Virus record (IMG/VR): IMGVR_UViG_3300029448_000534
Coordinates: 1 to 21,083 of that record
Source of the DNA: a virus
DNA length: 21,083 nucleotides
Reading direction: 5' to 3' (one strand)
Position numbers and translations under genes: made by a program. Position 1 is the first letter of the stretch. Each line of letters opens with the position of its first letter. Under the pieces are notes generated by a model, which did no database searches, had not been told where the DNA came from, and saw nothing but the letters and a program-made list of their open reading frames with translations. This document shows, piece after piece, positions 13,817-14,908 of this stretch.

Positions 13817-14908
13817 ATGTCATCACAAATAACAACAGCATTCGTACAGCAGTATAGTTCTAATGTATCAATGTTGTCTCAACAAAAAGGCTCTCTTCTT
13901 AGAAAGGCTGTTGAAGTTGAAAGTGTAGTAGGTAAAAATAGTTTCTTTGACCAAGTTGGCTCTGCCATTGCTCAAAAGAGAACTTCAAGACATGCTGATA
14001 CACCTCAAATGGATAAAATAACTGTTCATTAAAAATTCGGTGGATTGCTGGGAACTCCTAATAGGACAATCAGCAGCTTAGCTTTATAATTTAAAAGGTA
14101 TAAGGAAAGTTCAACGACTAGAGATTGACGATAAGAATAATATCTCCAAGAGTGCCGAACACTATTTAATAGTGAAGATATAGTCTAAGCTACATAGTAA
14201 TATGTAGAAGTAGTAATTAAAAAATCTACAAAGAATAAACTGACACCTCATGCAAGAAGAAGAGTATCATTGGTAGATTATGAGTATGCTGATTTAATCG
14301 ACAATCAAGATAAAATCAGAACTCTTATCGATCCAACATCATCATACGCACTAGCTGCTGCTTACGCACTAGGTAGAGCTCAAGATGATGAAATCATCGC
14401 TGCTGTTTCTGGCACTGCTTATGCTGGGGAAACTGGATCTACTTCAGTTGCTCTACCATCTGCACAAAAGATAACAGAAAGTGGTACTGCTGGATTAACA
14501 ATCGCTAAACTTAGATCTGCAAAAGAGATAATGGATAGTGGTAATGTTGATCCTTCAATTCCTAGATGGATTGTAGTATCTCCAAAACAAGTAACTGACT
14601 TGTTAGGAACTACTGAAGTTACTAGCTCGGACTTTAACTCTGTTAAAGCTCTTGCTAATGGCGAAGTAAATTCATTTTTAGGATTTAACTTTATAGTCTC
14701 TAACAGACTTTCAATCGGATCATCAAAAAGACTATGCTTAGCATGGGCTCAAGATGGTATGAAAATGGCTCTTGGTCAAGACATTATGACTAAGATCGAT
14801 GAAAGATCTGACAAAGGCTATGCAACACAAGTCTATGTGTGTCAAAGTATTGGAGCAACTCGTCTCGAAGAAGAGAAAATTGTTTCTATACAAGCACATG
14901 AGGCATAA
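13817..14908 (+). CDS. Major capsid protein, split by a group I intron
   Basis: Best read as join(13817-14014, 14243-14908), giving 287 residues. Exon 1 (66 codons) starts at ATG 13817 after GAGGAGG and ends ...RTSRHADTPQMD. Exon 2 (221 codons plus stop) begins TPHARRRVSLVDYEYADLID, then NQDKIRTLIDPTSSYALAAA and YALGRAQDDEIIAAVSGTAY. These are core motifs of the podovirus HK97-fold capsid proteins that follow a scaffold gene, and DTPxxxTPHxRRR is the expected continuous motif across the junction. Both exon ends are in phase. Without splicing, translation stops at UAA 14030-14032 after 71 residues; exon 2 alone could only start at TTG 14270, without a ribosome binding site and without the N-terminal arm. 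The protein forms the capsid shell. The splice junction is inferred from base pairing and frame. Confidence 0.9.
14015..14242 (+). ncRNA. Group I self-splicing intron (ORF-less, IA-like)
   Basis: A 228-nt ribozyme inside the capsid gene. P1 pairs exon AAUGGAU (14008-14014) with guide GUUCAUU (14024-14030), placing the required U-G wobble at U14014/G14024. P3 is UUCGGU (14036-14041) with GCCGAA (14154-14159). P4 is UGCUG (14046-14050) with CAGCA (14071-14075). P5 is UCCU/AGGA (14056-14066). P6 is CUUUAUA/UAUAAGG (14082-14105). P7 is GACUA (14116-14120) with UAGUC (14181-14185). P7.1 is GAGAU/AUCUC (14121-14146). P8 is CACUA/UAGUG (14160-14174). P9 is CUACAUA-GUAA-UAUGUAG (14190-14207). The conserved core words GUUCAACGACUA and AAGAUAUAGUCU match T4 td-type introns. 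The terminal G is 14242. There is no homing endonuclease ORF. P10 is weak. Confidence 0.93.

Follow-up and report, generated by a model that had tools for sequence, protein, structure and literature searches.

Judged from its sequence and its relatives, the insert that splits the major capsid protein (MCP) gene of IMG/VR record IMGVR_UViG_3300029448_000534 is a group I intron without an open reading frame (ORF). The window, that is the whole stretch analysed, covers 21,083 bases. The full account, to which we give a probability of about 0.95, is that of a self-splicing intron, probably of the IA type, situated after codon 66, most likely passed between phages by recombination, and having relatives that changed sites.

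The interrupted capsid gene

Head and tail genes occupy the right part of the window: small and large terminase, portal (PF12236), MCP and tail proteins, with a protein matching a protease family also among the head genes. The MCP gene is organised as follows:

13817..14014, plus strand: MCP exon 1, codons 1-66, ending in DTPQMD; gap-free against relatives up to the junction
14015..14242, plus strand: group I intron without ORF, 228 nt, last base G (14242, omega-G); RF00028 match and covariation
14030..14032, plus strand: in-frame TAA, terminating translation of unspliced RNA
14243..14908, plus strand: MCP exon 2, codons 67-287 plus stop

An earlier note on this DNA had claimed that the capsid frame stops at 14030 and resumes in another phase near 14243, and this is indeed the case: the ORF 13817-14032 closes at the TAA, so that unspliced RNA is predicted to yield a 71-aa product only. 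Joining 14014 to 14243 (198 + 666 nt) gives 287 aa plus a stop and, as the same note had proposed, brings DTPQMD and TPHARRR together in frame. The spliced protein matches PF19821 at 301.8 bits and phrog_3437 with E=1e-91, and is 95% identical in amino acids to the uninterrupted proteins of L002 and L003. Aligned with related capsid proteins, its junction (...TPQMD/TPHARRR) is gap-free in 80/80 uninterrupted relatives, these being the best 80 of at least 579 confirmed and a list biased toward intact genes. Among isolates, the best matches are pelagiphages HTVC028P (76.3% aa over the full length) and HTVC203P (76%), followed by Lederberg EXVC029P (73.5%) and HTVC010P (72.8% aa over the full length). 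Since its MCP lies nearest to these pelagiphage isolates, the record is read as a fragment of an HTVC010P-type pelagiphage. SAR11 bacteria are the hosts of such phages.

Identity and boundaries of the intron

The covariance model Intron_gpI (Rfam RF00028) matches strongly, as the earlier note had anticipated, with 88.8 bits against a gathering score of 50 (E=7.8e-22), from model position 1 to 253, the full length. The start of the match reported by cmscan, 13947, results from P1 being forced into the exon, and the boundary at 14015, with P1 formed by 14009-14014 and 14024-14029, is therefore preferable. The U at position -1 and the terminal G are kept in every complete intron extracted, and the U.G pair at the 5' splice site is present in 16/16 introns scored. 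The exact empty site exists in homologues, and exact 30-nt empty sites were found for four other carriers (L201, L210, L221 and L222). Within the window intron the longest stop-to-stop open stretch is no more than 51 codons; having no ORF, the intron encodes no homing endonuclease of its own, in agreement with the first reading.

Could the gene simply be broken, through an error of sequencing or assembly, or else carry an intein or be read by translational bypass? The interrupted frame is all that recommends such explanations. Ribozyme covariation, the recurrence in about 40 contigs, the exact empty sites and an insert that no open frame crosses make them barely credible.

An extra helix between P7 and P3, P7.1 (P7.2), is a mark of subgroup IA. 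From P7.1, which has covarying pairs here, and the known anatomy of the subgroups, the intron probably belongs to IA, an assignment made at the IA level only. We infer from these sequence features that the capsid transcript is spliced: the end of exon 1, AUGGAU, would pair with the internal guide GUUCAU, and GTP would attack just 3' of U14014; exon 1 would then attack after G14242, and the exons would be joined to encode the 287-aa capsid protein.

Architecture and covariation of the ribozyme

The predicted secondary structure contains the following helices:

P1, plus strand: exon AUGGAU 14009-14014 with guide GUUCAU 14024-14029; U.G at the 5' splice site, 99% paired
P3, plus strand: 14036-14041 with 14154-14159; covaries; encloses P4, P5, P6 and P6a
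P4, plus strand: 14046-14051/14070-14075; invariant
P5, plus strand: 14056-14059/14063-14066; covaries
P6, plus strand: 14076-14077/14109-14110; invariant
P6a, plus strand: 14082-14088/14099-14105; strong covariation
P7, plus strand: 14116-14120 GACUA with 14181-14185 UAGUC; invariant
P7.1, plus strand: 14121-14125/14142-14146; inside P7, strong covariation
P8, plus strand: 14160-14165/14169-14174; inside P7, strong covariation
P9, plus strand: 14190..14207; 7 bp with GUAA loop, 99.2% paired, three pairs changed on both sides, strong covariation
P9.1, plus strand: 14210..14229; 4 bp, 86.8% paired

Pairs were counted by applying this P1-P9.1 structure, taken from the window, to an alignment of 19 distinct introns of the same gene family; MAFFT misplaced P1 of the introns at sites B and D (defined below), and those ends were trimmed beforehand. 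Across the 19 introns 96.8% of the cells are paired, against 85.9% when shuffled and 27-41% when slid, and 28 of the 58 pairs are changed on both sides. Covariation reaches 0.345, compared with 0.146 for shuffled and at most 0.071 for slid alignments. The P3-P8 core with its P3/P7 pseudoknot is present, helices P3-P9 being 88-100% paired. The core helices, the P1 with its splice-site U-G pair and the 7-bp P9, first drawn from one sequence, also pair in the related introns. The single-sequence minimum free energy fold is weak (z=-2.0, with 8/200 shuffles equally stable), the pseudoknot lying beyond this model, so the case is carried by comparative evidence and not by folding energy.

P1 is the most telling helix. 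Exon G/C and guide C/G switch together (9 versus 7 introns): carriers of the exon word AUGGAU have the guide GUUCAU or GUCCAU, while carriers of AUCGAU have GUCGAU, GUUGAU or GUCGAG. As the two vary together (AUG/AUC), the intron tracks the Met/Ile codon of the capsid gene. The predicted P10 amounts to 1-2 bp at most.

Insertion sites across the capsid gene family

Exon-, guide- and core-anchored pattern scans of IMG/VR, followed by tblastn, identified about 40 MCP genes of this family with ORF-less group I introns, at eight positions or more. The earlier remark that the mode of spread was open is thus right but understated. All introns measure 198-246 nt, which is too short to encode an endonuclease. 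The sites, given in codons of the window protein, are:

Site C, after codon 45: L212-L214, L259, L264, L265, L293, L314, L332-L334, L359
Site E, after codon 48: L115
Site F, after codon 61: L327, L331
Site A, after codon 66: the window and 22 others
Site B, after codon 69: L101, L127, L189
Site D, after codon 78: L222
Site G, after codon 96: L327, L331
Site I, after about codon 270: L346, L395

Carriers are a minority, the best 80 of the at least 579 confirmed relatives being all intronless. At least five genes have two introns, among them L212-L214 (C and A), L115 (E and A) and L327 (F and G), and L331 may be another. The two introns in the MCP gene of L115 (7226-7771) are of clearly unlike make-up: a 198-nt intron after codon 48, scoring 55.9 bits, and a site-A intron. 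The MCP gene of L331 (149-739) has one intron ahead of TPQID and another at site G. The 3' half of the latter differs in type, being richer in GC, and continues into the exon that encodes ALVQGEVDTF (about codon 207), so that about 110 codons are skipped. Either two introns from different phages have recombined here, or the assembly is chimeric.

How closely are these introns tied to the capsid gene? A guide-anchored scan that is independent of the capsid sequence, GTCGAN{4,6}AAATTSGKTRAATTGCTGG, returned capsid genes at 24/24 loci, with every match listed, and a scan with the window-type guide at 9/9. When whole records were searched with Rfam, introns scored above cut-off in 26/27 and 13/13 carrier records and in 0/15 intronless relatives; where compared by coordinates, the matches in carriers lie in the MCP gene. 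(A SNORD34 match on the minus strand of the window, 1477-1549, has 28.7 bits, below the cut-off of 38, falls within a predicted ORF and was taken as chance.) A restriction of such introns in general to capsid genes was ruled out by a 3'-end pattern, which led to capsid genes at only 3 of 88 newly examined loci. What is confined to the capsid is the P1-P4 signature, together with the introns within these phage records.

Beyond this family, introns of this kind also occur in L335 (near 5893) and at about 30 more loci, immediately upstream of a gene that these loci have in common, and a cluster of 32 similar frames lies downstream of these introns. In three viral contigs (L242:1708-4118, L248:308-4484 and L381:7100-8921), the motif of the intron core or of its 3' end recurs 3-4 times over a few kb. 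Distant blastn searches of annotated phages with the intron yielded only partial matches to the core, in other phages, and a scan of genome contigs for a host origin gave no match.

Probable transfer at a single site

Near-identical alleles with and without the intron suggest what may accompany its arrival. The carrier L205 and intronless L066/L067 share 99.65% DNA identity over the MCP gene (3/861 bases differ), and the carriers L217 and L202 are 99.4 and 99.1% identical to intronless L035. In both sets the insertion point reads GAC/ACT when empty and GAU/ACA when filled, that is, C to U at -1 and T to A at +3. The U at -1 is needed for P1. P10 was considered as a reason for the A at +3 and dropped; this A being synonymous and unexplained by P10, a short co-conversion from the donor is its simplest reading. 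The comparison suggests that the intron arrived together with a few exon bases, and later adaptation could also have produced the -1 and +3 changes. Spread at the same site between phages is most likely the work of DNA recombination in which a very short stretch of exon is co-converted, with no recognised endonuclease in the records.

One alternative is plain homologous recombination with vertical descent: the introns would be inert and would travel with the capsid gene whenever phages swap it in their frequent co-infections. The correlation between intron and capsid identities (rho 0.69, n=119 pairs) fits this, but the 99.65% identical alleles, which differ solely by the intron and three bases, do not, and exchange of genes leaves new sites unexplained; as a full explanation it is rather doubtful.

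Another is collaborative homing: the intronless gene would be cut by a free-standing endonuclease, encoded elsewhere in the same phage or by one that co-infects, and the intron would be copied in during repair. Such homing is known for introns lacking an ORF in phages related to T4 and in others (PMC3984707), and near-identical alleles with and without the intron, with exon changes at the splice site, are traces that homing leaves. However, PF13392 had no match above cut-off and PF01541 no match in 27 carrier records, nor did PF01844, PF02945 or PF14528 match in 25 carrier and intronless records. HNH, GIY-YIG, LAGLIDADG_3 and Endo VII are thus without a match, a result that is suggestive only, the records being mostly fragments. 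Furthermore, a single enzyme recognising a long target would not account for six sites or more whose flanks are unrelated, and the tracts deduced are very short. Homing of this kind is, like plain recombination, less likely than not. A single sub-threshold HNH_3 match, in the record of L127 (G025:28682-28783, 23.6 bits for a cut-off of 24.8), belongs to a frame of 117 aa that lies about 6 kb away from an intron-bearing MCP gene and marks a candidate free-standing endonuclease.

Movement between sites

Related introns changed sites within the capsid gene, as shown by the intron tree: it requires eight site changes, and monophyly is rejected for site A (AU test, p=2.4e-5; p=0.0015 with an earlier 19-row tree) as well as for site C (p=9.4e-4). 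The site-C intron of L212 is 88.5% identical to the site-A intron of L206 and 77.4% to the site-A intron of its own gene. This same C_L212 and its tree neighbour D_L222 have the identical guide GUCGAA at different sites.

A possible route is reverse splicing, whereby free intron RNA would insert, at words that pair with the guide (UCGAU, GGAU), into the capsid mRNA, which is presumably the late message present in greatest amount; cDNA synthesis and recombination would complete the process. This would account for spread to new sites, not for splicing. In its favour are the related introns at codons 45, 61, 66, 78, 96 and about 270, the rejected monophylies, the shared guide of C_L212 and D_L222, and intron-internal scans that led to MCP genes alone. 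Over six sites, the -6..-1 word has 71% identity (29% at random), while the flanks remain at the random level (31% versus 29%, p=0.17). In the MCP family, the word UCGAU is found chiefly at codons 96, 86, 45, 66, 164 and 78, and four of these six positions hold introns with that type of guide. On the other hand, P1 is obligatory in every working intron, so the sharing of words is partly forced and fits RNA-guided insertion without proving it; measured against GAU codon ends, the excess has p=0.07 only. No intron was found at codon 86, where UCGAU is common, and the -1 and +3 exon changes fit transfer at the DNA level. Reverse splicing is on balance unlikely. The specific proposal that pelagiphage introns without an endonuclease invade the capsid gene as RNA, reverse-splicing into the viral mRNA present in greatest amount at sites that match the guide over 5-6 nt, and afterwards spread from phage to phage through recombination, is likewise unlikely.

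Comparison with known introns

Introns in capsid genes are already known, and what makes the present case interesting is that one gene was invaded repeatedly. Mycobacteriophage LittleE has an intron, most likely of group I, in its major capsid gene, also with U before it and G at its end, and its splicing was shown by RT-PCR and protein sequencing; it differs in being 819 bp long, with a homing endonuclease, and in occurring in one phage, whereas the intron described here has no ORF and lies in a PF19821 MCP with many sites (PMC3706429). A related intron in BAKA and Optimus, making one lineage at two genes, is like ours small (265 bp), free of an endonuclease and placed in a virion gene; it is spliced, but interrupts a tail gene of mycobacteriophages of siphovirus form (PMC3706429). 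A capsid gene of lactococcal phage Tuc2009 is likewise interrupted by a group I intron, as cited in the same paper (PMC3706429).

Huge Jug phages contain many small group I introns, about 206 nt on average, with splicing seen in metatranscriptomes for 37/76 (PMC12363816). Those introns lie in many genes (terL, nrdD, DNA polymerase) of 360-402-kb phages with many endonucleases, unlike the pelagiphage introns, which are confined to the MCP gene of small podovirus-type phages with no recognised endonucleases (PMC12363816). Fungal rDNA is alike in that related group I introns, thought to spread by reverse splicing, occupy several places in a single gene of high expression, but the host there is a eukaryotic rRNA and not a phage protein gene (PMC1299323). 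According to a review, mobility by reverse splicing has no direct experimental support, and rDNA is its best circumstantial case (PMC3984707). The literature searched contained no report of such introns in the capsid genes of pelagiphages, and the apparent matches deal with subjects other than capsid introns.

The capsid protein is presumably the product that pelagiphages must make most of. If these introns splice, reliance of this protein on a ribozyme is a recurrent feature of the family. With some 40 genes, at least eight sites, alleles that differ by the intron only and no recognised endonuclease, these phages offer natural material on how ORF-less introns move.
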